A DNA stretch of 64,000 nt, from positions 188,439,194-188,503,193 of the forward strand of contig OZ038380.1 of NCBI GenBank assembly GCA_964036045.1. Direction: 5' to 3'. Positions 2,393 through 51,757 of this stretch are shown here, one piece after another. Below the pieces are notes generated by a model. That model did no database searches, was not told where the DNA came from, and worked only from the letters and a program-made list of their open reading frames with translations. How positions within the stretch are numbered: the stretch's first letter is position 1; every line of letters starts with the position of its first letter. The translations under genes were made by a program, and so were the position numbers. This DNA comes from Eutreptiella sp. 'Long Island Sound 2002' (Eukaryota; Euglenozoa; Euglenophyceae; Eutreptiales; Eutreptiaceae).

Positions 2393-2417
2393 CACACACA
2401 CACACACACACACACAC
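2393..2417. repeat. (CA)n microsatellite, tail of the adjacent ribozyme-like element
   Basis: Uninterrupted CA repeat. On the minus strand it is the TG tail directly downstream of the hammerhead-like copy at 2420-2513. Confidence 0.9.
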
Positions 2418-2419
2418 GT

Positions 2420-2513
2420 TGGGAACCGCAAGAACAAGAACAAAAACACAAGAAAAGCGGTTGGAGTAAACTCCTCAGGAGCTGCAGAGCAGCCCTAGAC
2501 GTCTTTCGGTCTG
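2420..2513 (-). ncRNA. hammerhead-like ribozyme, family 1, copy 1
   Basis: Minus-strand order: GAAA (2507-2504), palindrome GACGTC, U-A (2497-2496, expected cleavage after 2496), stem I GGGCTGC-TCT-GCAGCTC (seven pairs, one G-U), then CTGAGGA (2478-2472) and G. These match the hammerhead core boxes and leave no extra base between them. Further downstream AACCGC and GCGGTT can pair around a U-rich loop, followed by a TG tail. Stem II (AGACC against GTTTA) is weak. Near-identical copies lie at 19650-19741 and 43268-43357. Confidence 0.5.
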
Positions 2514-7152: not shown

Positions 7153-8330
7153 CAAGGTATCAATTCCAATCATGCCCAAACTGCAAGGTCCAACATTCCT
7201 ACATCCTACCACTAGTGCAAATCATCAGTTCTGTGTTCGGCCCTGCAGGGGGGCAATTGTGTGTGTGTGTGTGTGTGTGTGTGACAGGACGGTTATGTCC
7301 TGATCCATGTCTCCTTTCCCTATCTATGTCAGCTCAGGACCATGCCCCTGCTGGGTCTCCCCTACCCTGGGCCAGATTGGAGGCAGTGGGAGCCCGGGAT
7401 CCGCGGAGGGTGTTCATACACCCGCATCCACGTGGGGAGTGGCCCAATGCAGGCCACAGCAAGCAGGTAAACAGCGACCTGAGGGGCACCACCTGGTCCA
7501 TGTTTCCCGCTCCAGTCAGTAATGACGGTAATATGAATTAGGAGCGGGTTGACACATCTTGAATTTCTCCCCTCCTCTATCCAGTGGCAGTCGGTAGGGG
7601 TTGGAGAGAAGTATTGACCTGTGACCTCAGAGATTGTGCCAGGGAGACTGTTAGCCTTTTACCTCACCCCCTGGCCATGATCTTCCACAAACACAATGGT
7701 TCGCCTTGCACTCCCTGTCACCGTCATCGCAGAAAGGCGCCCAGCCTACATGACTGTTTGCATGTCCTTCATGTTTGCTGTTCTGTGTTTGGCCTAACTA
7801 GAAATGCAGACACCCAGTGCACATCCTTGCCTGTGATTCTTGGCTCCACACCATGTCATTGGGCCTTTGCAGCATGTGTGTGTGTGTGTGTGTGTGTGTC
7901 CATATGTGCCTGTGGATGCTTTCTGAATGTCTGCTTTTTCGAAGAGTGCCCATTTGTCTGCCTGGCACAATAGTGTTCACAGTGTGAAGAGACACCCGTG
8001 AATCGATCTGTTGCTGATGCCGCAATCTGTTTGTTGTGTGCGCGACCAATCACCCCATGTGTATGTGTATGCTTGTGTGTGGACATACAGCTGTCCCCTC
8101 CACAGGGTGTTGGGGCGTGCATGCAGGCGAGCACTCATGCATACGCCTTTGCCCTTCCTGCTCCCCTCTTCGTGTCCTGCCATGTCCATGCCCAGATGCC
8201 CTTTTCATGTGCGCCTTTCCCCTTGCCCACCCGCACCCCCTCCCCCTCTGCCGCTGTCCACTCCTTGCTTGCAGGGCAAACGTGTGACGTTCAGTGCCTC
8301 AGTGGAATCAACCAGGGGGGCGGGGCATAC
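5035..8330. other. no confident gene; microsatellites and one protein-like minus frame
   Basis: Relatively AT-richer to about 6.0 kb, then GC-rich. A minus-strand stretch at about 5690-6070 reads as protein in two overlapping frames (for example LGGYHSFVFLGLANYHKF and LCLHYSTSVLELM), but neither frame is complete and no family is assigned. GT repeats lie at 7102-7151, 7259-7283 and 7875-7899. Confidence 0.25.
7102..7151. repeat. (GT)25 microsatellite
   Basis: Fifty uninterrupted bases of GT. A shorter GT tract follows at 7259-7283. Confidence 0.95.
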
Positions 8331-9766: not shown

Positions 9767-12700
9767 CTATGTGCCGCATGCACCGCAAGCCCCTTCAGCG
9801 CCCATGTCCCCACGGCAAGCGCTCATTGCTTTTGTGTTCAAGGCGATGCTCCAGCCCAGCCCCTGCGAAGGTCCGTGCTGGGGCACCGGGCCTCCTGGTG
9901 CTGCTGGGGTTGCGGCTGAATCCCCCCCCCGCCCTCCCCCGCGCCCCTGGGCGGGCCTTGATGCGGGGGATGCGCCCCCCACACGCAGAAGGCACACCTT
10001 CGGCTGCAGCATGATCGCCACCACGAGGGAGGCCCATTCGGACTGGCGCCAGCGCGTGCGGAGGGACGTGGTCTGCAGCGGGTCCATGAATGCATGCGGG
10101 AGGGGGAGGGGGGGGGGTACAGGGAATACAAGGGCAGGGGAGGGGGGTGACCTGCGCAATGTGACACCACAGGTTTGGCACAGAATTCTGAAAGTTAAAC
10201 GGGGGGGGGGGGGTGGCACAAGGCCTCGGTATCAGGTTGTTTGCCTTTGCCGGCGCCCATTGGCCTCTCACCACTGCTCATTCTGACCCTCTGTGGGTCC
10301 AAACCTGTTTTGGTCGTGTCAACGGAGCCCCTGGATGACTTGTCCTGTCTGACTACTCCGGGGCCAGCAGTCCCAGAGACGGGCTGCTGCCCGTGCCGTT
10401 GACCAGGTGCATCCAGAAAAGGAGGGGGGGGGTTACCCCTTTGGGACGTAAATGCTTTGGTTGTGTTGTTGGGGACCGGAAGGTGCGAACAAAAGTGTCC
10501 CCTCATTCGACGGTCATGCCACACAAATTCTTGTCCCTCCATCATGGGGCCGTCTTGGTAGGAACTCGGGTCATCTTGGGGGGCGTTTTCACACAGCGCG
10601 CACACAGCGCGGGCACAGCGCCAATTATTACGGTGATTATCCAGGTAACAACCCTGAAAACCACCCACCTGCGGAATCATGCACAATCAATTCAAAACTC
10701 AAAAATTCAAACATCTGATGCTTGCCATGGGTCCCAGGAACCTGAATTCTGCCCCTATAGCCCCGTGCAGTGCAGCAGCCATTCAATGACGTCCTTTCAA
10801 TCTTCTGAACTTACTGAACTCCCGGTGGTAGAGAACAGCCAACTTTTCGCACAGCGCACGGTACGCCCCCTTGGTAGGAATTTGAGTCCCCATGTACAGC
10901 CCATGCTTCAGATGGCTGCCGAAAAATGGGGGGGATGTGCGAAGCCCTCATGGCATGCCTCCCCGTAGATCCGCCCTCCTCCCCTGGACAGGGGGTGCAG
11001 GGGGGAGGGTGTGCAAGGTACGCCGGCGAGAGGGCTCACGCCGCTGGCAGCATTGTGTGCCATGGCCCCGGGACTCAGAAGGGGTGCCGCCAGGGATGCA
11101 TTAGAAGGGAAGGTGCCCCACAGACGGCCCCAGAAGCGGTTAGACAGGCGGTTGGAGGAGGTTGCCAAAGCGGTTGGGGGCGGTTACTGTCGGTTACAAA
11201 TGCCATTGAGCCTGGCACTTGCCATCGGGGAGACAGTGGCTGGGCGTAGGCTGGGCGCCCTGGAGGGGGGGGGAGGGTTACCCCCCCCCCTTCCAATGCA
11301 TCCCTGGGTGCCGCCCCCGGTAAGTGCGCCCACGGGGGACCCTTAACACATGTGACAGCGGAAGGCGGCGGGCGCACAACAGTCATTGACCGACCCGTTG
11401 GCGACTCCATCGGCGGCGGCGGCCCCGGACGTCCCTTCGACGCCCACAACACGTCACAGAGACCGCCGCCCCTGCGGGAGGGCCCGGCGCACGTCCCGTG
11501 CCCGCACCCTCGCCCTCACGGGGGGCGTGCCAGTGCAGGGCCTGGCACAGGGCCCACCGAGGCCCGGGGGGTGGCACAGTGCTGCGGGGGAAGGGGGGGG
11601 CCGAGGGGAGGCTGAACCCCCCCGCAAATCCCGCCCCCCCATCCGGGCGCCACCGGCCTGCGCCTGCCCCCACTGTCCATCGGACGCCATTCATAACGGA
11701 CCCCCCTCCCCCCGGGCCCGTGTGCCCCCCCCCCCAAACACACACTGGGAGCAGCACACACAGTGCACCGCCAAAGCCTCGGCCCTCCACACCCCCGGAG
11801 GCACCCGTCCACACAACACAGGGGACAGGGGGCAACCAGCCTGCCCTCAGGGCACATGGGGCTATGGCCTCTCTGCCCCCCCCCCCCCCCCCTGGGTCCA
11901 CGTCCTGCCCCCCCCCCATCCCCCACTGACAGAGGCCCAGGGGCACAGAGGCCCAGGGTCGGGTCAGGGGCGGGCACCTTGGACAGTTGGATGGCCACGG
12001 CCCTCTGACTGCTGGGGTCCGCCTGCTTCAGGATCTCAAAGTCGTGGAGCGCCAAGTCGTAGTTCTGCAGCGCCTGGTGCGCACAGCCCCGGCGGTACAG
12101 TGCCTGAAGAGGGGGCGGGGGGGGGGGGCGGGCACCATCCCAACGGCCCGTGGCCCGGGGGCCGCACACCCCATGCCCCGGTGGCGGCCAGCTCAAGCCC
12201 TGAAGAGGGCTGTCCTTCCGCAAGGGGCCACAGGACCGGACCACCGAGCGGCAGTGCGTCCACAGCACCGGGCCCGTCCCCCACGGCAGTGGCCCGGTCA
12301 CTGACGACAGTCGCTAAGTCACGGCGGTGGGCAACAACCGGCGGCGGTTGGGGGGCTACCCGACAAACCGTAGCCAGAAAACGGGACGCGTGGGTGACTT
12401 GGCGGTGGGCCAGCAGCTGCCGGCGTGGGGCGCAGTGCTGAGGGGAGGGGGCTGTCTCGTAACCCAAAATACCCCGTGGATTGAGGACCGCCCGTTGATT
12501 GGGCACTGCAGCATCCGCACGTGGCGGGGTGGTGGGGTGGCGGATGGTACGGCCAGACACCAGGAATGCGGCCACATCGGCGGCTCTCGACGGTCGCATG
12601 TGCGTGTGTGACGCAGAGCCTCGCCCTATTGCTCCATTGCCTTCAGCAAGGCACCTCCAAGGGCACAGGGGGCCAGAGGGGAGCATCCTACGCACCGCAT

Positions 12701-18700: not shown

Positions 18701-21456
18701 GGTTGGTGGCGGTTGGTGGTGGTTGGCGGCGGTTGGTGGTTGGTGATTGGTGGTTGGTGGCGGTTGGCAGTGGTTGGCAGTTGGCGGTTGGTCGCCGCTG
18801 GCGGTTGGCGGCGGTTGGTGGCTGGCGGTTGGTGGCGGTTGGCGGTTGATGGGAGTTGGTGGTTGGCGGTTGGTGGTCCCTTGGGGCGGTCCTTAAGGGC
18901 GGTCCTTAGCAAAAAAAAAAAAATCTGGTCCCTTAAGGACCGCCCTGCCAATGCCCAAGCGTAGGGGACCGGCCGCGGGGCGGTGCGGTTCCACCCGCGG
19001 GCCCTTGAGCACCAGGCAGGACAGCGGGGGGGGCGGACGACCTGGCCGGGCAGCATCTTGTCCAGGATAGCGCGGCAGTCATGCCGCGTCCGGGGGACGT
19101 GGCACTCCCCCTCGGTGGGCTCAAACGGGACCCAGCGGAAGCGGCCACACGGTTCGTCGGAGAGGCCCAGAACACCTGCACGCACAGAGGGCAGCACGGT
19201 GAGGGCTCTCCCTTGCCTCACCGGTGGCCTGGGCACACGTGTGTCATCACCAGCGGGCGGGCGGTCCGCCGGAAGAGGGGGTGCACCTGAAGGGGCTGTT
19301 GCGTGTGGGTTGGGGGGGGGGGGGGGCTGGGAAGTGAGTGTACAGGAAATGTGTCCTTCGGTAAATGTGATGTTTTCCCACTGAATTTTGGTGAAGTAGG
19401 GGGGGGGGGGTGAAGGGGGGGGGGGGGGGTGGCCCCCCAAAACAGTCTAATTCGGGCCGGGGGGCACACCGTCACAACGGGCATCTGCCTCTTTGAAAAG
19501 CACCGTTGGTTGTCTGGAAGACAACGACCCAACCGCTCATGTGCCCTATGAAGCGGCCTTTGCAGGGTCTGTGCGCCCCGCAAGCTCTCAACCCCATGCC
19601 AGGGCTTGTAGACCAGTACGGACACACACGCACACAACACACACACACAATGAGAACCGCAAACACAAGAACAGAGCAAGAAAAGCGGTGAAAGAAAACT
19701 CCTCAGGGACAGCAGAGCTGCCCTAGACGTCTTTCGGTCTGTCAGAAAACGCGGCAATGTGCTGCACTGGATATCAGTTCAGATCTGGCTCCCTGACCTG
19801 CCCTGAGAATCGTGCAGCGTTAATGACAGACCACAAAATTCACCTACGGAGGAGGTCGTGTTGTCTCGTCTACACACACACACACATACACACGTTGGGT
19901 GCATCCTGCCCCATGAACCCGCAGATGCGGAGGCCCTGCTGCATGCGCCATGCCCCGCACCCCGCAGCTGCCCCACGTACCTGAATCTTCGCACGCGGTC
20001 AGGCGGAACGCAGTGAGGCTCAGCACGTCCGGATGCTTGCGTTCGGTGAACTCCAAAAACGCTTCCCCCTGCGGAGGGGTGGTGGGCACGGTCACGGGCA
20101 CCCGCGCGGGCGGGAGCACGGGGGATCAAACGCTTTGGTGTGTCCGTTCGTGCGGCAGCATTGTTCTTGAGATGAGGCAGGGACACCCCCCCCCCGGCCC
20201 TGTGGCCCTTTGGCAGAGGAGGCCTCCACATGTGTCGACTCCGGTGGGCCCTACGTCGCACGTGCCGGGGTCCTGGGGGAGGTCCCCTCTTGTCTCCGTC
20301 GCCGCGGTCCTGTTTGGCAGTGTCGCCACAGCCCCGCCCCCCCCGCCCACCCATCCCCATCCCCCGGTCCCCAGAATGTGTTTCACTTCGCAAACGGGGA
20401 CCTCTGTACAATAGTCAGCCCAGTTATTACGCACACAGAGAACACAGTGGTCTCATGTTGTGGTCTGTTTTTTGGGGGGGTCTGGCTGGGACCCCCCTCC
20501 TCCCAGGGTCCCCCTATGGTCTCCGCCAAAGGCGGGCCAAAATCTTTTAAGCTCAAATCCTCTTGGCGCTGAAGCAAAATCTTGGCTGACAGCCTACATA
20601 TGGAGGAGGGGGGCCGTGGGGCATTGGGGTGCTGACTGCCCGGAGGGAGGCGGTGCTCGGTCAACCACAACTACCTCCTTGTGGACTGTCCGGGAGGGCA
20701 CTGGCTGACACGCTATGAAGAATGGATCTCCGAGTCACCACTGCACTCCAGCCAAGGAGACGCTTTTTAGGCGGCCCACCAACACCAATACCAACACCAA
20801 CACCAAGACCAACACCAATACCAACACAAGCACAAACACAAACACAAACACAAACACAAACACCAATACCAATACCAACGCAAACACAAACACAAACACA
20901 AACACAAATACCAACACAAACATAAACACAAACACAAACACAAACACCAATACCAATACCAACGCAAACACAAACACAAACACAAATACCAATACCAACA
21001 CAAACATAAACACAAACACAAACACAAACACCAATACCAATACCTACACCAACACCAACACCAACACCAATACCAATACCAACAGCCACAGCAACATCAA
21101 CAATGCGCGCCTAGGTGCCGGGGTCGCGGGCGAAGGACCAAAGTAAGTGCGACAGACAGCGCAGCAGAGGAAGGGGGGCAGCACCATGAAACACAAAGAG
21201 ACGGGGCTCTTGGACTCAGCAACGACGCAGTGGTTTGAGGTAATGAATGCGGTGATCATGTCGCCGTTGCTGAAGACAGGGGCGATGCACCGGCAGTCAT
21301 TCCGTCTGCCCCTGGCGCACCCCATTCCCCAGCAGGAGATCAGGACGCTGCTGGGCGTAGCAGTGCCTCCAAAACGGGCGGAGGGGGCAATACTCCCACA
21401 GGTACGCAAACAGATGGCCGGACGGACAGAGCGACAGACAGAGTGACAGACAGAGT

Positions 21457-25736: not shown

Positions 25737-25946
25737 CAGTTGTGAACTACAAACAGTGGGTGTACTTGTTGATATGATGCACTCTGGCAACTTCAGACCC
25801 TACAGCGCCTGCTGTAGCGCAACGTAGGGCATATGATACATACACACACAACGCACAGGACACAAGTAGCGACTGGTGCTCAGGGCTCACTGCAACCTGG
25901 GTTCAACCAAGTCATCCCTCTCCATCAGCGATGCAGATACACACAG

Positions 25947-25948
<2 letters not shown>

Positions 25949-26010
<62 letters not shown>
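25949..26010. repeat. (CA)n microsatellite, tail of ribozyme-like copy d1
   Basis: Uninterrupted CA repeat; on the minus strand it is the TG tail downstream of the hammerhead-like copy at 26079-26130. Confidence 0.95.
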
Positions 26011-26012
<2 letters not shown>

Positions 26013-26078
26013 CGTGACAGTGATCAAGAGAACCAAACCCACTGTTGATCGCAGACAGGCAGGCACTGATCAAAACGA

Positions 26079-26130
26079 CTCGTCAGGCCACAATTACAAA
26101 ATTGTCATGGAGGCTAGGCGCCTTTCTGAA
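26079..26130 (-). ncRNA. hammerhead-like ribozyme, family 2, copy d1
   Basis: Minus-strand order: GAAA (26126-26123), palindrome GGCGCC, U-A (26116-26115), a hairpin closed by GCC/GGC with an inner ACAAT/ATTGT helix, then CTGACGA (26086-26080) and G. This is the same box order as family 1 with a different stem III and stem I. The TG tail follows about 70 bases downstream. Stem II partners were not found. Copies d2 and d3 are at 43645-43708 and 44098-44160. Confidence 0.45.
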
Positions 26131-28235: not shown

Positions 28236-28457
28236 CAGGGGTGCATTGGAAGGGAGGGGACGTGCCCCCCCCCCCCCCCTCCCTCAAGGGCGCCCAGCCT
28301 ATGCCCAGCCACTGTCGCCCTGACGCCAAGTGCCAGTTTCAATGGCATTTGTAACCGACAGTCACCGCCCCCAACCGCTTTGGCAACCTCCTCCAACCGC
28401 CTGTCTAACCGCTTTTGGGGCCGCTTCTGAGGTCCCTTCCCTTCTAATGCATCCCTG
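28236..28457 (-). mobile_element. hAT-like non-autonomous element, second family, reversed copy
   Basis: Ends CAGGGGTGCATTGGAAGGG and CCCTTCTAATGCATCCCTG. Flanks CGGGAGGG (28228-28235) and CTGGAGGG (28458-28465) match at seven of eight bases. The interior is the reverse complement of the copy at 11091-11306. Confidence 0.75.
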
Positions 28458-29410: not shown

Positions 29411-29950
29411 CTGCAAGTTGACGGGTTGTGGGCCTCGGGGTAATATGGCGGCAGGACTGCATGTTGATGAATAGTACAGGAGATGCTCTATGAAAGCATC
29501 CATGGGAACAAAACCTCTGTCAGAGGGAATGTTCGTATGCACAACACACATTTACAACAGCCTTGTCCAGTGACACTTCCTTCCACTGTCGCACGTACCT
29601 TCAAAACAGTGGTGCGTGCGGGCTTGCCTGCACTGCTCTGAGCAATCTGTAGCCGACAAAGGGGCACAGAAACAAGGGCCCATCTGTGCATGCGTGAAAT
29701 GGCATGATGTCTGGTAGCCTGCACTGAAGCCACCAAAGCACATCATCCGACAGAACACAACATCAAAACCCAAACAACAAGCACACGGGAGCTCATGCAT
29801 CAAGATGCCATGGTGGGAACTACCTGGAACTCAATCATGTCCTGGAGACCACCACCAAACTAGTGAGACCGATGCGGAGGACGTCCGGGACAACAGCAGG
29901 ACTGCGCTGTGCTGTGTCGCACGCTGTGTCACACGCGTGAGAGAGGGAAA

Positions 29951-34708: not shown

Positions 34709-35149
34709 TCACATGTCCATATCCCCCGACTTCTTCTCCGTGTCGTACTTGGTCAACGCCGTCTTGAACATCCCCAGCGTATGCTGCATCACAGTGCTGA
34801 GCTCATGGAGGCCCTCTTTCAGCACCTCGCAGGCCGGGGGCAGATCGGCATCCTCCTCCTCTGTACCCGCTTTGCCGGTGCGCAAATGCACTTTCATCTT
34901 GGGTTCGAGCGGATGGGGGATCGTGTACCCACAGAACGAGGTCTTCGGGTTGGACATGAGGACGTGCCGCAAAGAATTGCCAAGAGTGTGCCCCTCGTCA
35001 GACCACAAGAAGGTGGCAATCGACGGGTCTTTGCCCGGGTAGATCCGCAGTTTGACGTCTGGGGCGTCCCCTGGGCCCCGAACATCCGGTAGCCCATCAT
35101 CACGCATGGGCTTCTGCAGGTCTTTATCAACCCGGCGCTCGGCGGCCAT
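34709..35149 (-). CDS. DNA-directed RNA polymerases I and III subunit RPAC2 (AC19)
   Basis: An intronless frame of 146 codons. AC19/RPAC2 pairs with AC40/RPAC1 as the alpha-like heterodimer that nucleates assembly of RNA polymerases I and III in the nucleus. The family signature is clear: FLWSDEGHTLGNSLRHVLM (residues about 46-64), then NPKTSFCGYTIPHPLEPKM, then a C-terminal helix with VLKEGLHELSTVMQHTLGMF. Human and yeast relatives are about 130-145 residues, so the length fits a complete protein with a hydrophilic N-terminal extension. The start ATG at 35149 is the first in frame; stop at 34709-34711. It is flanked by repeat R8 at the 3' side and by an AT-richer stretch upstream with repeated AAATTTCGCG-like words. 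Identification is firm; the lack of introns contrasts with neighbouring genes. Confidence 0.93.
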   Translation of the reverse strand: MAAERRVDKDLQKPMRDDGLPDVRGPGDAPDVKLRIYPGKDPSIATFLWSDEGHTLGNSLRHVLMSNPKTSFCGYTIPHPLEPKMKVHLRTGKAGTEEEDADLPPACEVLKEGLHELSTVMQHTLGMFKTALTKYDTEKKSGDMDM

Positions 35150-40732: not shown

Positions 40733-43537
40733 CTACGCGTCCGCCGCCGCCTCCGCCTCCCTCACAATCTCCCCCACCGCCCGCACGATGCGGTCCAACA
40801 AGTCCGGGTGCACGGCCGCCACGACCCCGCGATTGTTGAACAACTTGTACCCAGCGGAGAAGTCCAAGGCCCGGCCGGACTGGTCGCACACGGCCCCCCC
40901 CGCCTCCGACAGGATCAGGCTGCCGCTTGCCTGGTCCCAGATGTTCTCGCGGTAGTCGCCGCCCGTCAGGCCCCCGGGAAGACGCAGCAGGATCTGTGCA
41001 AAGGAAGGGCGTGGGGCGGGGGGCGGGGGGCGTGGGGCGTGGGGCGTGGGGCGTGGGGCGGGGGGGCGGGGGGCGATGGGCGGGGGGCGGGGGGGCGGGG
41101 GGCGATGGGCGATGGGCGGGGGGCGGGGGGCGGGGGGGCGGGGGGCGATGGGCGGGGGGCGGGGGGCGGGGGGTGGGGGGGGAGTGGGTGCAGCCCCTCG
41201 CCCCCCAGGGCTTCTGGTGTGTGTTTGACGTGGGGGGCGTGGGCCGCACGCACACGGGGGGCGGTGGTGCAGCGGATGGGGGTGTGCAAAGGTATGGTCC
41301 GGTGATGTGGGGGCGTGGGTGGGGCTCCGGCCAGAGGGACCCCCTTCCCCGCACACGCCCACGGGGCCGGGGCACCGCGGGGCACACGCGCTCCGCAGAC
41401 CCGCCGGTCTCTGAGGCGGTGGTGACGGAGGTCCGGAACACACCGGGTCCCGGGGGCAATGCCTTGGCTTTGGGGGGCGGGGGGGGGGGGGGGGCTGATG
41501 CACCGGGGCACTGGGGACGGGGGGGAGGGGGGGGGGGGGCACCCCCGGGGCATCACGACGCGTCGCGACCGGGACACGGACCGTCGCGTCGCGCCCCCCA
41601 AGAGCGACTGCGCCGACGTGTGGCACTCCGACGCCGGTTCGACACCCCGTTTGTCTTTGTGCTGCCGGCGCCCTTTGGCAGCACGGGTCATGTCACGCCC
41701 CACCCCCGGGCGCACGGCATTGGCGCCGGGGGGATCGCGTCCCGGACCCCCACCCCCCCTCCTCGTGTTTCAGGCACCCGGAGGAAATGGGCGGTACCCC
41801 GCGGGTGTTCCCCACGTGCCCAGGCCCATCCCTCTCGGCCCCTCCCTGTGCCCAGGGCATGACAGTGAGTCTGGGGAGGAGACTGGGCGGGAAGAAAATT
41901 GCTCTGCGGGGGGGAGGGGGGACACGGAAGCCCATTTTCCCAACCCCCCCCCTCTCCCTCCTTGACCGCCGTGACAGGAGGGGGGGGTTCAGGGCGGGGG
42001 CGCCCGACCTGCCGTGCCGGGGGGGTGCGGGGGTCAACCCAACATCTATGGCTCAAAATGATACCCACGTCGCGCTGATCATTTTGACTACTCAAATGTG
42101 GGGGGGGAAGTTATTGGTGGAAAAAACTTTTTCGGGCCAAATTTTTGTGTTCTTGTGCCTTTGGCGCCAACATCCGTTCTTACACAAAACAAAGGGCCCG
42201 ACACGGAACCCCATTTCTCCAACCCCCCCCCCCTCCTCCTTCGGCGGGCACCCATGTCACCCCCCCCCCCCCCCCCGCAGAGCAATTTTCAGGTTGCCCT
42301 GCCCCCCGGTTGTGTGCCGAGGGCGCACCACACGTACATCGAGGCCGGGCCTCCCAAGGGCAGACCTGCTGCTCGTGTCCCGCGTGTCAGAGCCGCGCGA
42401 GGCAGTGCCTACCGAGTTCGGGGCGCAACACGAGCGGACATTACCGAGTGGCACATGGGACGGGGCCGATCTCCAACGCAATGACCGGGCCTCTGCCGGA
42501 CACCCGCGGCACGTCTCGGGGGGTGTCGGCGGGCGCACACACCTGCGCATCCCCGCGGGCCATACAACAGTACTTCGCCTGGCTGTCCATGCGCAGGGGG
42601 CCTTGGGTGATGCCCAGCTTCTCCGCCACCTTCGCCGCGTCGGTGTGCGAGCTGTGGGCGGCCTCCACAGACTCGCAGAAGCGCACGTCCGCCCCCTCCG
42701 CAAAGACCTCCGGCAACTTCAGGCGGATCGGGGCACAACGGGGGAGCTGCTGGTACGCGGGGCTGTCGGGGGGGGGCATGGGGTAGGAGTACGCCCCTTG
42801 AGCCTTCGCGGCGTAGAAGAGGGCCCCGGGCGTTGTGGCATGCGAAGCGTCGGGGTACGAGTCTGGACAAGAATGGGCGGGAGGGTTTGTGAGGACGGGG
42901 GAGGGATGGGGTGGGGGGGGTGGGGGGTCGGTGGGGGAGCGCTAGTGCGGCGCGACCCCCTGTGGCAGGGCCTCTGGGCCCGGCACTCCCGTTAGGGGCA
43001 CAGGAAATGGCGTGCATGACCTGTGGATGGGCAGCAGTGGACAGTAGGGCCATTCTCGGGACCACCGCCTGTTCAGGCCGGCAGAAGACGGTCCTGGTGC
43101 AGTATCTGCGTCGGTCCATAGACCCCGAGACCTCCGCTGTTCAGTAAGTCCGTACAAAGGGCCTTGAAGTGACCATGGGGCATGGGGCATGGGGCGTGAG
43201 GCATGGCACGGAGGTCTGTTGGGGGTGGGGTGGGGTGGGGGGGCAGCGCACCTCATGGGCACACGTTGAGAACCGCGAAACAAAAACAAAGCAAGAAAAG
43301 CGGTTGGAGAAAAAACTCCTCAGGAGCTGCAGAGCGGCCCTAGACGTCTTTCGGTGTGCCAAAGAGTGCACAAACTATCGCAAACGTGATGCAGGCACAG
43401 CCCTTTATTAGACCTAGATGCATCCACGGAGGAGTCCGTGATTGTTCAAACCAACGCCATCCATATGCATGTCATGCTGTGCTGGGTGCCCCCAACGAGC
43501 CACACACACACACACAGCAAGAGCATTCAGTGGTCAG

Positions 43538-43591
<54 letters not shown>

Positions 43592-46324
43592 TTGAAGCGA
43601 GACGAACAGGCAGATAGACACAGCACTGCACTGGTCGCTAACAAATCTCGTCAGGCCGTAAGAAAGTAGAAGATGGTGTGGAAGAGCATGCGGCGAGGCG
43701 CCTTTCTGTAGTACAGCAGGTACACGGTCAGAAGGCACCAACGGGTGGGGCGGTCCACATGTCGTGTCCACCCCTGCAAGCAGGAAAACAAGGTCATGCC
43801 AAGGCCTGTGCCCCAGGAAGTCCCTTACCCCGCCCTGCCCCGTCCGTCCCCGCTCCGCTGTTCCCCTGTACCATCAGGACGATTCGGGAATTGGTAACCT
43901 GCAAGAACCACCCGTCACCGGGGGGACACACACACATTCTGCCCTTTGGCAGCTCTGTCGGCGCACCATGTCCAGCGCTCTCCAATCATCATTCCATACA
44001 ACCTCAAAAGCACACACACACACACACACACACAGACACGCACCCGATGGACGCGACAAACAGGCACTTGATCAAAGTAGTCCGAGTGTTCTTGGTCACG
44101 TCAGGCACGTGTCAAAGGAAATCACAAAAACAGGGAACAACACGCGCTAGGCGCCTTTCTACAGTGAAGGTAAACAAGGCCAGCAGCTCCTGCGTGCAGT
44201 CCTCGGGCAAGCCCTCGGTTGCCACGCACACACACACACGGGGGAGGGAGGGAGAGGGGGGGGGTCGTGCGATACATGTCATGAGGTTCTGGCTGGGCCC
44301 CCCGAGGAACCCCCACCCACCCACCCCCACTGATGACCCACCCTTCCGAGGAGGGGGCGACACTGGGGGTCGCTGATTGCGGCAACGTCGCATCCCTCCA
44401 GACCCCACTCTGCCGTGGGCCCTCCAAACAATGTGGGCTGTTTGCCAGGCGCACCACCGCCCCCTCACTGGGAGTCGCGGAGTCACTGACAGCAGCGCGG
44501 CACGGGGGCATACCCTCCGTTGGGGCCAAGTTCGGACATCCCTCCACGCCCACGACCACTTCCCCGTCCACCAGCAGCGCCAGGCAGATGGCGTACTGCT
44601 GCCCCCTCAGAAATCCCTTGGTGCCGTCCACGGGGTCCAGGGTCCAGTAGCGCTCCTTGTGCCCGCGGAAGTCCCCGTAGTCGATCCACTCGCACACCTC
44701 CTCCGGCGTGGCCTCCGGGTGCACCGCCCGCACCGCCTCCACCACCCGCTCCAGCAGCACCGCGTTCGTCTGGAGGTCGGCAGAGGTCTCTTCGGCGCAG
44801 ATGAGGTCCTCGTGGAACACTTCGCGGATGTGCCTGAGCCCAGACAAGAGGCGCGATCACCAGCACAGGCTAGCGGTCCGCAGGGGGCGGTCGTGCCCGC
44901 GACGTTCCAATGGCGGAGCCATTCCACTCGGCCGCGCGCGCACACACACATGAGCACACGTTGGGCGGGAAGGAAATTGCTCTGCGGGGGGGGCGGCGGC
45001 ACCAGGTCTTTGCTGAGTGATACGGGGGGGGGGGGGGTGTCAAATTGGCCCCCCGGGATTTTGGCTGACCCACCCACCCACCCACATCAGAAAATTTTTC
45101 CTCAGGAAAAAAATGAAATTTATCAAAGGGGCCCGAACTTGGAGGTCGATTTTAGGTACACAAACTTTTTTTGGCCTCTGACCCACCCACCCCCCCCCCC
45201 CGGTATTGTATCAACCAGCCACTAAGCAAAGGCCTGGGCGGCACGGAAACCCATTTGCCCAACCCGCCTCAATTCCTCTTCGTAGATGGGACAACGCCGA
45301 AGCTAAGCACGGCACAGAGAAACCAGGCAAGGGGGGGTCCGGCGCAATCAGTGTGCACTGTGTGTGTGTGGACAGAAATGTGGGTGTTGGATGTGACCAA
45401 AGCCAGTAACAGCTGTGGTTGGGCCAACACAAGCGGCACGACATGAATGCAGCGCAATGTAAAGTGCGTCGGGGGGTAGACCCATCCCACCAACCCGTCA
45501 TATTTGTTGTTGCCCAAAATCGTAGTGTGGGGGGGTCCCTTTCGCTTCCCCTGGACCCAAAACCGCGTCAGATCGTTGTCCTTTGCATGGCCTTTCAGTA
45601 ATTGCAGTGCCTGTTCGCGCAGTTCCTTGGCGGACGCTAGTTTTCCAATGAGGCGGAACTGTTTCTCATCAGACAGGTTTGGTAGTATGTCTTTGATCGC
45701 CCCCAGCCAGCAATGGGCAGCGAGCCGTTCTTACCTGCAGACAACCATGTCTTCTGTGTTCCAAGGCCCTGCAGAGGCCACCCCTGCCGGGGTCTCCATA
45801 TGGACAGCATATGGGCTGTGTGTGCGTGCGCGCGTGTGTGTATGGTACAACCACAAGGAGGACACCACCGACAACAAACACACCACAAAACAACAATTCT
45901 GCCGAGAGGCGTTCCACCATTCTGTGAGCTCTTCGGGACTTCATATGACCCCAGCTGCGGTTGCTTGGATGGGGTACGGATTGGCATGTGCCACGAGGGC
46001 CGCAGGATTGGCCTTCAGCACAGGGGGATGAGGGGCGGAGTGCACTGGAGTAGGAAGGCGGGCAGGCGGTCACCTCAGTACAATGGCCTGGACTGCAAAA
46101 TCAGCCACAGTCACGGGGGACAAATCGGCCTTCTGGATCTTGTTGGACGCGGAGGACACCGATGGGGCCACTAAACGTGAAGCGACGGCTGATAGTTGGA
46201 CTGCGTGGACGGCAGCGGCAAGCTCTCGGGCATAGGGCTGAGAGACAGGGAGAATGCACCGTTCTATTGGATGGGCCAACTCATTTCCCGGCCTAAAAGC
46301 ACCCACTGGGTCAAGCTTAGCCAT
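40733..46324 (-). CDS. 3'(2'),5'-bisphosphate nucleotidase, HAL2/SAL1 family
   Basis: Four exons on the minus strand, 46237-46074, 44833-44514, 42862-42543 and 40993-40733, all with GT-AG borders and matching phases (2, 1, 0). They give about 354 codons, close to full length for the family. The enzyme removes the 3' phosphate of PAP/PAPS in sulfur assimilation and is Mg2+-dependent and Li+/Na+-sensitive. Motifs in order: SPVTVADFAVQAIV (exon 1), AEE and WTLDPVDGTKGFLRG (exon 2, metal site), AKVAEKLGITQGPLRMDSQA (exon 3), IWDQASG (exon 4). Stop TAG at 40733-40735. The 5' end is uncertain: a good acceptor TCTCTCAG precedes codon PYARELAAAV, so a small upstream exon may exist, but the frame is also open to an ATG at 46324 or 46405. 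Introns 1-3 carry a hAT-like element, three hammerhead-like copies and a minisatellite. Confidence 0.9.
41000..41180. repeat. G-rich minisatellite (GGGGCGGGGGGCGATGG type)
   Basis: Irregular units of GGGGCG and GGGCGATGG, immediately upstream of the last exon of the HAL2-family gene, in its third intron. The gene's own strand is C-rich here. Confidence 0.9.
41893..42292. mobile_element. inverted-terminal-repeat element, intron 3 of the HAL2-family gene
   Basis: GAAAATTGCTCTGCGGGGGG at the left and its exact reverse complement at the right, just inside GGGC/GCCC, bracket about 400 bases without coding capacity. The ATTGCTCTG word resembles R1 ends. A left-end-only fragment is at 44961-44990. 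No target duplication was found. Confidence 0.5.
43268..43357 (-). ncRNA. hammerhead-like ribozyme, family 1, copy 3
   Basis: Minus-strand order: GAAA (43352-43349), GACGTC, U-A (43342-43341), stem I GGGCCGC-TCT-GCAGCTC (one A-C mismatch), CTGAGGA (43323-43317). AACCGC/GCGGTT pair further downstream as in copies 1 and 2. Lies in intron 2 of the HAL2-family gene in the sense direction. Confidence 0.5.
43542..43589. repeat. (CA)24 microsatellite, tail of copy d2
   Basis: Uninterrupted CA. On the minus strand it is the TG tail downstream of the hammerhead-like copy at 43645-43708. Confidence 0.95.
43645..43708 (-). ncRNA. hammerhead-like ribozyme, family 2, copy d2
   Basis: Minus-strand order: GAAA (43706-43703), GGCGCC, U-C (43696-43695), a hairpin closed by GCCG/CGGC, CTGACGA (43654-43648) and G. 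In intron 2 of the HAL2-family gene, sense direction, followed by a TG tail. Confidence 0.45.
44098..44160 (-). ncRNA. hammerhead-like ribozyme, family 2, copy d3 (degenerate core)
   Basis: Minus-strand order: GAAA (44159-44156), GGCGCC, U-A (44149-44148), stem I GCGCGTGT/ACACGTGC (eight pairs including one G-U), then CTGACGT (44104-44098), in which the last core A is changed to T. TG tail at 44011-44032. Intron 2 of the HAL2-family gene. Confidence 0.4.
45003..45236. mobile_element. hAT-like element R1
   Basis: Ends CAGGTCTTTGCTGAGTG and CACTAAGCAAAGGCCTG. Perfect 8-bp duplication GGCGGCAC at 44995-45002 and 45237-45244. Interior nearly identical to the copies at 53131 and 63055. It lies in intron 1 of the HAL2-family gene. 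Confidence 0.9.
45270..45730 (-). CDS. unidentified coding-like frame inside intron 1 of the HAL2-family gene
   Basis: A minus-strand frame of about 150 codons open from near 45730 to a stop at 45269. Its first 55 codons are strongly protein-like: GAIKDILPNLSDEKQFRLIG, then KLASAKELREQALQLLKGHA, then KDNDLTRFWVQGKRK. Just upstream, CTGCAG|GTAAGA (about 45735) is a good donor, preceded by an ATGGTTGTCTGCAG stretch. The HAL2 exons on either side join in frame without it, so it is not needed for that protein. It could be an alternative exon, a nested gene fragment or a retroposed piece. No family recognised. Confidence 0.35.
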
Positions 46325-51017: not shown

Positions 51018-51395
51018 CTGCACAGCACAACGAGGACGGTGTGAGGCAGGGCGTGCCCTTCACGTGCAATGCCTCAGGGGCGAACGCGAGGTGGGGGGCC
51101 ATGGCAGCACATCACGACGCGGACACGTGGGTGTGGGCAGTGCTGGACCCCAGGGCCACGGCTGAAGAAGGGGGGTCAATGGTGGGTCTGATCCACTGCA
51201 TACCCCCCCCCCCCCCCCGGCCAACGCACTTCCACAGCCACGGGGGATCCCGGAGGAGATGGGGGGGGAGCTCTACATTCCCCATTGGATCTGGCCTTTG
51301 GCTTGGCTACACATCAGTGGGAAGTAGCGCAGATGAAGGGGCATAGCTTAGGGGCTGTGCTGGCCCCTCTCATGTGCTGGGCAGGGCTTGGACAG

Positions 51396-51757
51396 GGGGG
51401 GGGGGGGCAGAGAGGCCATAGCCCCATGTGCCCTGAGGGCAGGCTGGTTGCCCCCTGTCCCCTGTGTTGTGTGGACGGGTGCCTCCGGGGGTGTAGAGGG
51501 CCGAGGCTTTGACGGTGCACTGTGTGTGCTGCTCCCCGTGTGTGTTTGGGGGGGGGGGGGGCACACGGGCCCGGGGGGAGGGGGGTCCGTTATGAATGGC
51601 GTCCGATGGACAGTGGGGGCAGGCGCAGGCCGGTGGCGCCCGGACAGGGGGGGGTTTGCGGGAGAGTTCAGCCTCCCCTCGCCCCCCCACCCTTCCCACG
51701 CAACACTGTGCCACCCCCCGGGCCTCGGTGGGCCCTGTGCCAAGTGCCGGCCCTGCA
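51396..51757 (-). repeat. R6 repeat, inverted partner of 11527-11890
   Basis: Reverse-complement match to 11527-11890 over its whole length, with differences mainly in C/G runs. Confidence 0.8.

Follow-up and report, generated by a model that had tools for sequence, protein, structure and literature searches.

Repeats with hammerhead-like boxes, a splice-acceptor edge and (TG)n tails in a Eutreptiella genome: a putative 3' module of retroelements

Introduction

Retroposed spliced-leader mRNAs keep the leader in their genomic copies. Among Penelope-like elements, a group with an N-terminal GIY-YIG domain (Naiad/Chlamys) is said to occur in green algae and to insert at (CA)n.

Natural hammerheads of type II, an active hammerhead whose stem II has one pair and a pseudoknot, and dimers made through a palindromic stem III are on record (PMC3088659); the block orders of hammerheads are named in PMC10085705. 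Hammerheads of Penelope-like elements are minimal type I variants, lacking helix III or tertiary contacts, which may act as dimers (PMC7761336), and one Penelope hammerhead cleaves only with protein (PMC11167929). In euglenids, a 28-nt spliced leader of Eutreptiella reads ACACUUUCUGAGUGUCUAUUUUUUUUCG (PMC3621762), and the E. gracilis leader has TATTTTTTTTCG at its conserved 3' end (PMC4778363). E. gracilis outrons end in CAG after a C-rich tract (PMC11170887).

Here we analyse a stretch of 64,000 nucleotides (the window) from Eutreptiella sp. 'Long Island Sound 2002' (assembly GCA_964036045.1, contig OZ038380.1, positions 188,439,194 to 188,503,193), together with further loci, designated by L numbers. 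The repeats described have the block order GSC in the naming of PMC10085705.

Results

Family 1 copies in the window

A sequence-only reading had placed three copies of a hammerhead-like repeat, here called family 1, on the minus strand at 2420-2513, 19650-19741 and 43268-43357, with GAAA, GACGTC, TA, a hairpin and CTGAGGA following one another without spare bases. Reading all three copies confirmed both their positions and the order of the boxes:

2393..2513, minus strand: family 1 copy 1; CAG acceptor 2513-2511, ACC, GAAA 2507-2504, GACGTC, TA 2497-2496, hairpin I 2495-2479, CTGAGGA 2478-2472, hairpin 2 (AACCGC/GCGGTT) 2462-2424, (TG)n tail to 2393.
19623..19741, minus strand: family 1 copy 2; CAG acceptor 19741-19739, GAAA 19735-19732, hairpin I GGGCAGC/GCTGTCC, CTGAGGA 19706-19700, hairpin 2 19689-19655, (TG)n tail.
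43260..43358, minus strand: family 1 copy 3; acceptor now CAC, GAAA 43352-43349, hairpin I with one C-A mismatch, CTGAGGA 43323-43317, hairpin 2 43305-43271, end a short GTGTG.

The hairpin between TA and CTGAGGA measures 17 nt in these copies, which are 84-87% identical over 103-123 nt. A 19-nt probe, ACCGAAAGACGTCTAGGGC, had exactly 3 window matches at up to 3 mismatches, with 0.00 expected. The extent first assigned to the repeat proved too short, as fuller family 1 copies continue in both directions to (TG)n: upstream, similarity reaches a (TG)n whose end lies some 140-150 nt 5' of GAAA, and downstream it passes the second hairpin and then enters (TG)n. The window copies of both families run into (TG)n, copy 3 of family 1 keeping only GTGTG. 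This copy and two copies of family 2 (below) lie in sense orientation between two HAL2/SAL1-like coding stretches of one gene, of which the one at about 44832-44527 was scored and the one at approximately 42941-42444 was recognised by eye only.

A second family with the same layout

The type II layout, scanned on both strands as GAAA, a palindrome or hairpin, UH, a hairpin and CUGANGA, was found at 4 sites of the window; 100 sequences of 128,000 bases simulated with a first-order Markov model held 3. For the type I and type III layouts the window had 0 sites and the 100 simulated sequences 4. Given the 3 simulated matches and the thousands of repeat families in the genome, one chance match is conceivable. 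From the fourth site, however, a second family was recognised, and since it has the same layout, we rejected a chance match of a single repeat. Family 2 reads GAAA-GGCGCC-T[AC]-hairpin-CTGACG and lies on the minus strand at 44159, 43706 and 26126; a decayed copy is found on the plus strand:

44011..44161, minus strand: family 2 copy; TAG acceptor, GAAA 44159-44156, GGCGCC, TA, hairpin I GCGCGTGTT/GACACGTGC, CTGACGT 44104-44098 (last box base differs), (TG)n from 44034 down.
43499..44016, minus strand: family 2 copy, 93% identical to L090 3392-3901; GAAA 43706-43703, TC, hairpin I GCCG/CGGC, CTGACGA 43654-43648, (TG)n 43589-43538.
25939..26128, minus strand: family 2 copy; CAG acceptor, GAAA 26126-26123, GGCGCC, TA, hairpin I, CTGACGA 26086-26080, (TG)n from 26010 down.
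7730..7899, plus strand: decayed family 2 copy; CAG followed by AAAGGCGCC, TA changed to CA, CTGANGA changed to CTAACTA, (TG)n 7875-7899.

A leader-like relic, TTTCTGAATGTCTGCTTTTTCG, occupies 7920-7941 (plus strand), just 3' of the last of these tails.

Among GGCGCC sites met without requiring CUGANGA, at least four do not have it (window 7732; L022 at 75; L024 at 68; L092 at 3844), and nine keep CUGANG (window 44159, 43706 and 26126; L029; L044 twice; L024 at 462; L004; L032). Copies of the former kind were left out of the genome-wide family 2 pattern and of both helix II core sets used below.

Abundance in the genome

The assembly comprises 2.28 Gb, in contigs of up to 201 Mb. A genome-wide search with 74 nt of copy 1 yielded 1888 first-look candidates and, from these, 40 scored matches, and the family 2 pattern GAAAGGCGCCTAGC-N14-44-CCTGACGAG matched exactly at 335+347 = 682 places, against 0+0 for the reversed control. 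Twenty arbitrary stretches (200 kb, 56% GC, CpG at 0.69 of expectation) contained 12 loose matches to the 5' box, of which 0 were followed by CTGANGA; the window is thus rich in these elements. At one locus (L070, G000:C1:166773600-166774700), four units of family 2, nearly identical and each with its own (TG)n, stand in tandem at a spacing of 192-196 nt.

Outside this genome, a 16-mer had one match in a viral contig collection, with the rest of the module missing there. Longer patterns gave 0 matches in the viral collection and 0, then 1, in a genome contig collection; that single match, on an archaeal contig, was taken as chance, its stem I having only 3 outer pairs.

Like SINEs, the repeats are short and high-copy and end in a simple repeat. 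A- and B-box-like words were seen by eye at the family 1 5' end, and no tRNA match was found in 12 loci. Identity with a tRNA or another Rfam RNA was rejected for the sequences searched. A coding explanation (frames RKTSRAAL... or RKAP...) was likewise rejected by eye, as the changes between copies 1 and 2 alter amino acids yet keep pairs, and the frames differ between copies.

Helix I, helix III and the second hairpin

Stem I had been credited with seven pairs and with compensatory changes. Seven pairs are indeed present in copies 1 and 2 (GGGCTGC/GCAGCTC and GGGCAGC/GCTGTCC), but in copy 3 the fifth pair is replaced by a C-A mismatch. The compensatory changes hold more widely, as helix I covaries across many different hairpins. 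From 57 distinct family 2 cores we obtained 36 distinct hairpin end pairs, most of the loci having been picked by a pattern containing CTGACGAG, which limits this pairing test and that of helix II. At helix I positions 3-6, 87 of 144 cells were paired versus a shuffled mean of 59.9, and 0 of 5000 shuffles, which ignore relatedness among the hairpins, reached 87. Positions 3, 4, 5 and 6 taken singly were reached by 0, 46, 13 and 313 of 5000 shuffles. Slid partners paired in 26-50% of cases versus 64% in register. Position 3 is C-G, G-U or G-C, and position 4 is U-U (13 of 36), G-C, C-G or A-U. In an earlier test, 12 cores that included family 1 had given 60 of 72 pairs versus 38.7. In most family 2 copies helix I has 3 to 10 outer pairs; in L044 at 563 it has 1.

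The boxes GAAA, UH and CUGANGA stand in a hammerhead-permitted order with no spare bases between them, and N7 differs between families, being G, C or T. That the loop-less palindromic stem III can pair only between two molecules, as had been proposed, also applies: GACGTC in family 1, like GGCGCC in family 2, is self-complementary and without a loop. Its pairing is preserved between the families by a change from A-U to G-C on both sides, which makes one change.

Family 1 clearly has the second hairpin (AACCGC/GCGGTT) ahead of its tail. In family 2, stems of 4-13 pairs were found in 22 of 27 loci by an automatic search that had no shuffled control, and we therefore do not count this hairpin as evidence. 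No pseudoknot partner for the UCU loop was seen by eye.

Helix II and the conservation of the core

Helix II had been recognised as the weak point of the hammerhead reading, and pairing tests in both families bear this out. In 27 family 2 cores, 40 of 135 pairs were possible versus 39.7 after shuffling, that is, chance. Position 11.1 is A in 38 of 43 family 2 cores and C in 5, of which 4 are leader-joined (see below). The 38 cores with A formed 41 of 190 pairs, below the shuffled 50.0, and the 5 with C formed 15 of 25 versus 13.9. Of 26 exact family 1 cores, 21 have a G-C pair and a mismatch followed by weak pairs (13 as pair-mismatch-pair-pair, 8 with one more pair). A helix II with G10.1-C11.1, of the kind that marks a hammerhead, was not found in these tests. 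A helix II made with the U tract of the leader was considered and rejected, as positions 10.2-10.5 are not purine-enriched (66, 32, 53 and 11%).

Comparison with the Rfam hammerhead models gave no match in the window at E ≤5, none for copies 1 and 2 at E ≤10, and none in 12 further loci at E ≤5.

The boxes were expected to be conserved above their flanks. In 42 family 1 copies this was so relative to the outer flanks, but GAAA and UH do not rise above the adjoining bases and helices. Variants amounted to 6% for GAAA, 10% for U16.1, 19% for H17 and 1% for CUGANGA, versus 1-3% in the helices, 5-7% in the four bases 5' of GAAA, 31% in the outer 5' flank and 12% in the 3' flank; these copies were chosen by similarity to the query over the same stretch and mostly record decay after insertion, so that the figures decide little. 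Of the core bases, the one at the cleavage site, H17, varies most: it is A in 34 copies and differs in 8 (4 with C, 4 with G), whereas A15.1 and U16.1 vary in 4 each. A hammerhead does not cut at a G in H17.

A spliced leader at the 5' edge

Four features had been missed by the sequence-only reading: the acceptor at the 5' edge, the leader joined to it, (TG)n as tail and as target, and the connection with a GIY-YIG element. The unit starts at a splice acceptor, CAG followed by AAAGG or by ACCGAAAG (the junction words being CAG before AAAGGCGCC or ACCGAAAGACG). Where position 11.1 of family 2 is A (38 cores), the three bases that close with the first letter of GAAA are CAG in 34, TAG in 3 and AAG in 1, and the sequences upstream of the acceptor differ between families.

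In five genomic copies, the leader or a close variant is joined exactly at the acceptor. TTTCTGAGTGTCTATTTTTTTTCG directly precedes AAAGGCGCC in L024 and L103, exact over 24 nt, and a close variant with small differences does so in L071 and L078; in L036, a family 1 copy, a leader variant directly precedes ACCGAAAG. L024 holds all 28 nt of the published leader. A leader variant also precedes TGAAAGGCGCC in L004 (the same place as L011), and in L107 a leader-like sequence lies a few bases further upstream. The joined sequence is, by its match, the euglenid spliced leader. From its junction at the acceptor in genomic copies we conclude that this CAG does accept the leader in trans, and that RNA spliced in this way was copied back into DNA. 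A putative third family (F3) with a real helix II was rejected, as its upstream sequence is the spliced leader, which makes it the spliced form of family 2. A fragment of the dinoflagellate leader gave 0 matches.

Leader-like sequences were also seen near coding sequences. An Rpb11 gene (Pfam RNA_pol_L_2) at window 35189-34712, minus strand, has one frame open from ATG to stop; a leader-like relic, TTTCTGAGTGTCGTTTTTTTG, lies at 35189-35169, 19 nt before the ATG at 35149. This copy looks like a retrogene from a trans-spliced mRNA. In L031 and L045, full copies of family 1 are preceded on their 5' side by two similar protein ends, EGYHPVWCHNAELLCQLAAAAT and EGYTPVWCHNADLLCQLAAASV, each followed by a stop (translated by eye), and in L031 a leader-like relic is joined to coding sequence.

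(TG)n and a link to a retroelement

Counted at 4 or more units, (TG)n was present on the 3' side at 34 of the 39 loci of family 1 and at 17 of the 19 of family 2, versus 30 of 1800 random stretches, which may be gene-poorer. On the 5' side, family 1 has it at 30 of its 39 loci, versus 23 of 820 random stretches, and family 2 at 7 of its 19, versus 26 of 1100; here too the random stretches may be gene-poorer. In L091, for example, 52 nt of (TG)n follow the core. These counts fit (TG)n being both insertion target and tail.

L090, which covers 4.2 kb around a family 2 copy, has a GIY-YIG match (22.1 bits, E 1.9e-4, just under the Pfam cut-off of 22.6) about 2.7 kb upstream of the core. Between the two lies a frame of 406 codons that is RT-like by eye (ELDCKDQFN, IPMGGSFSAQSADLH). 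For this frame no RT match was returned: Pfam gave only DUF6197 at E 0.98, NCBIfam nothing at E ≤1, and solved structures weak hits to other proteins, the best being ribosomal protein eL39 at E 0.067. L093 has an RDD motif and is RT-like by eye. No GIY-YIG was found in the three other 4.2-kb loci (L091-L093), and no family 1 copy could be tied to an autonomous element. We infer that the L090-type element is Penelope-like.

Other repeats of the window

Window 11543-11888 and 51395-51742 are inverted copies, 95-98% complementary and about 40 kb apart; 11091-11277 and 28271-28457 are likewise inverted copies, at 90%. A further repeat family (D5, D8, D16) at 29949, 38836, 45001, 53129 and 63053 (plus strand) has TTTGCTTAGTGA-like words adjoining G runs, with CACTAAGCAAAGGCCTG at the other side of some copies.

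Discussion

The module shares with type II (GSC) hammerheads the order and register of GAAA, UH, helix I and CUGANGA, a variable N7 and a palindromic helix III such as has been proposed to form dimers. It differs from them in lacking helix II (family 2) or in having one pair and a mismatch there (family 1), in its loop-less helix III and in having no Rfam match. With Penelope-like elements that carry hammerhead motifs (canonical PLEs, Terminons) it has in common a GIY-YIG domain (a weak match, at one locus), a hammerhead-like motif at the end, an incomplete ribozyme and a tandem array (L070). Their motifs, however, are of type I and lack helix III or tertiary contacts, whereas the present ones are of type II and lack helix II (PMC7761336).

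As in the Naiad/Chlamys group, GIY-YIG lies upstream of the RT-like frame in L090. Like SINEs and retrozymes, the module is short, has hundreds to thousands of copies and carries a simple-repeat tail, and retrozymes also have hammerheads; unlike in them, several copies have a spliced-leader 5' end, and tail and target are both (TG)n. Like retroposed spliced-leader mRNAs, its genomic copies retain the leader at the 5' edge, but what accepted it was a short 3' module in place of a whole mRNA. A Euglena retroposon bearing a leader or a hammerhead was not found among the titles and abstract openings listed from a largely open-access literature.

We favour, at about even chances, the reading that the repeats are a retroelement 3' module which undergoes trans-splicing and whose fold, derived from a hammerhead, is probably not self-sufficient. 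For it speak the high copy number, the leader joined at the acceptor, the CAG edge of the family 2 cores, the (TG)n around the loci, the GIY-YIG match of L090, the covariation of helix I and the variable N7. They would form the 3'-terminal module of a retroelement superfamily in a euglenid-type genome, comprising at least one element with GIY-YIG and an RT-like frame, plus many short derivatives. The module would start at a trans-splice acceptor, with CAG immediately or 3 nt before the GAAA box, and continue with GAAA-palindrome-UA, a variable hairpin, CUGANGAG, a stretch able to form a second hairpin, and a (UG)n end. Its RNA would be given the spliced leader at the acceptor and then be reverse-copied into (TG)n microsatellites; several genomic copies retain the leader. 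The fold would keep the hammerhead boxes and helix I, along with a self-complementary helix III, without a proper helix II. Most likely it descends from a hammerhead, comparable to the structures known from the termini of Penelope-like elements, and it may now serve mainly in recognition or processing of the template RNA, being probably unable to cut by itself. Against this reading stand the GIY-YIG score just under the cut-off, the RT-like frame read by eye, the missing helix II of family 2, the GGCGCC sites without CUGANGA, family 1 not being tied to an autonomous element, the few leader-bearing copies met, and the fact that the N7 change from C to T could also be CpG decay. The mobile, leader-accepting unit is its firmer part; hammerhead ancestry, which rests on short boxes, is likely.

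The hammerhead core as originally read is supported in its type II (GSC) box order, its register, its helix I and a palindrome that keeps pairing between the families, and not in its helix II; as helix II of family 2 is at or below chance, no Rfam hammerhead model matched and H17 varies, it is only partly supported. A functional type II hammerhead, forming a dimer through the palindromic helix III and cutting after UA with a minimal helix II, is in our opinion unlikely. The boxes in register without spare bases, the covariation of helix I and the palindrome preserved by a two-sided change between families speak for such a ribozyme, which has precedents in one-pair stem II and palindromic stem III dimers (PMC3088659) and in the perhaps dimeric and the protein-dependent Penelope-like forms (PMC7761336, PMC11167929). 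The level of helix II pairing in family 2 and the UCU loop, for which no pseudoknot partner was seen by eye, argue against it, as do the Rfam result and the family 1 copies that vary at A15.1, U16.1 or H17, 4 of them with G at the last. Cleavage confined to the trans-spliced RNA, in which the leader would complete the ribozyme, perhaps with a palindrome dimer or a protein of the element, seems to us very improbable. At the junction of CAG with AAAGGCGCC, the last G of the leader would then be G12 of GAAA and the leader C would be C11.1, which would supply the G10.1-C11.1 pair missing from unspliced family 2 RNA.

More serious, although we still hold it to be doubtful, is the possibility that the repeats carry an unrelated retroelement RNA fold, either for template recognition by the RT or as a splicing signal after the acceptor, and resemble a hammerhead by chance. 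The absence of helix II, family 1 GAAA and UH that are no more conserved than the adjoining bases and helices, the 3 chance matches to the relaxed layout in 100 simulated windows, and the position of the boxes where RT recognition or exonic splice signals could be all speak for it. It accounts poorly for a match common to families with different hairpins and two palindromes, for variation that falls at N7 and in helix I, and for boxes that abut a hairpin supported independently. The acceptor could also belong to a retroposed or domesticated cassette exon of about 115 nt, lying in sense in introns between a YAG acceptor and (GT)n as 5' splice site, but this we regard as scarcely probable. The CAG at the 5' edge of 34 of 38 family 2 cores would suit an exon, as would the GTGTG consensus of E. 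gracilis GT-AG 5' splice sites (PMC11170887) and copy 3, which lies in the sense direction within a gene, flanked by two coding stretches (the second recognised by eye). The (TG)n tails are far longer than a splice site needs (52 nt in L091), (TG)n also lies 5' of 30 of 39 family 1 loci, and the leader-joined copies show use of the acceptor in trans-splicing.

The trans-spliced 3' module that we favour would link spliced-leader trans-splicing, retroelements inserting at (TG)n and hammerhead-like folds at retroelement ends, which are usually studied apart. The many hairpins between constant boxes would amount to a natural mutagenesis set on what incomplete hammerheads do. If the leader-joined module is indeed mobile by itself, it would represent a euglenid short-retroposon system with a spliced-leader 5' end.
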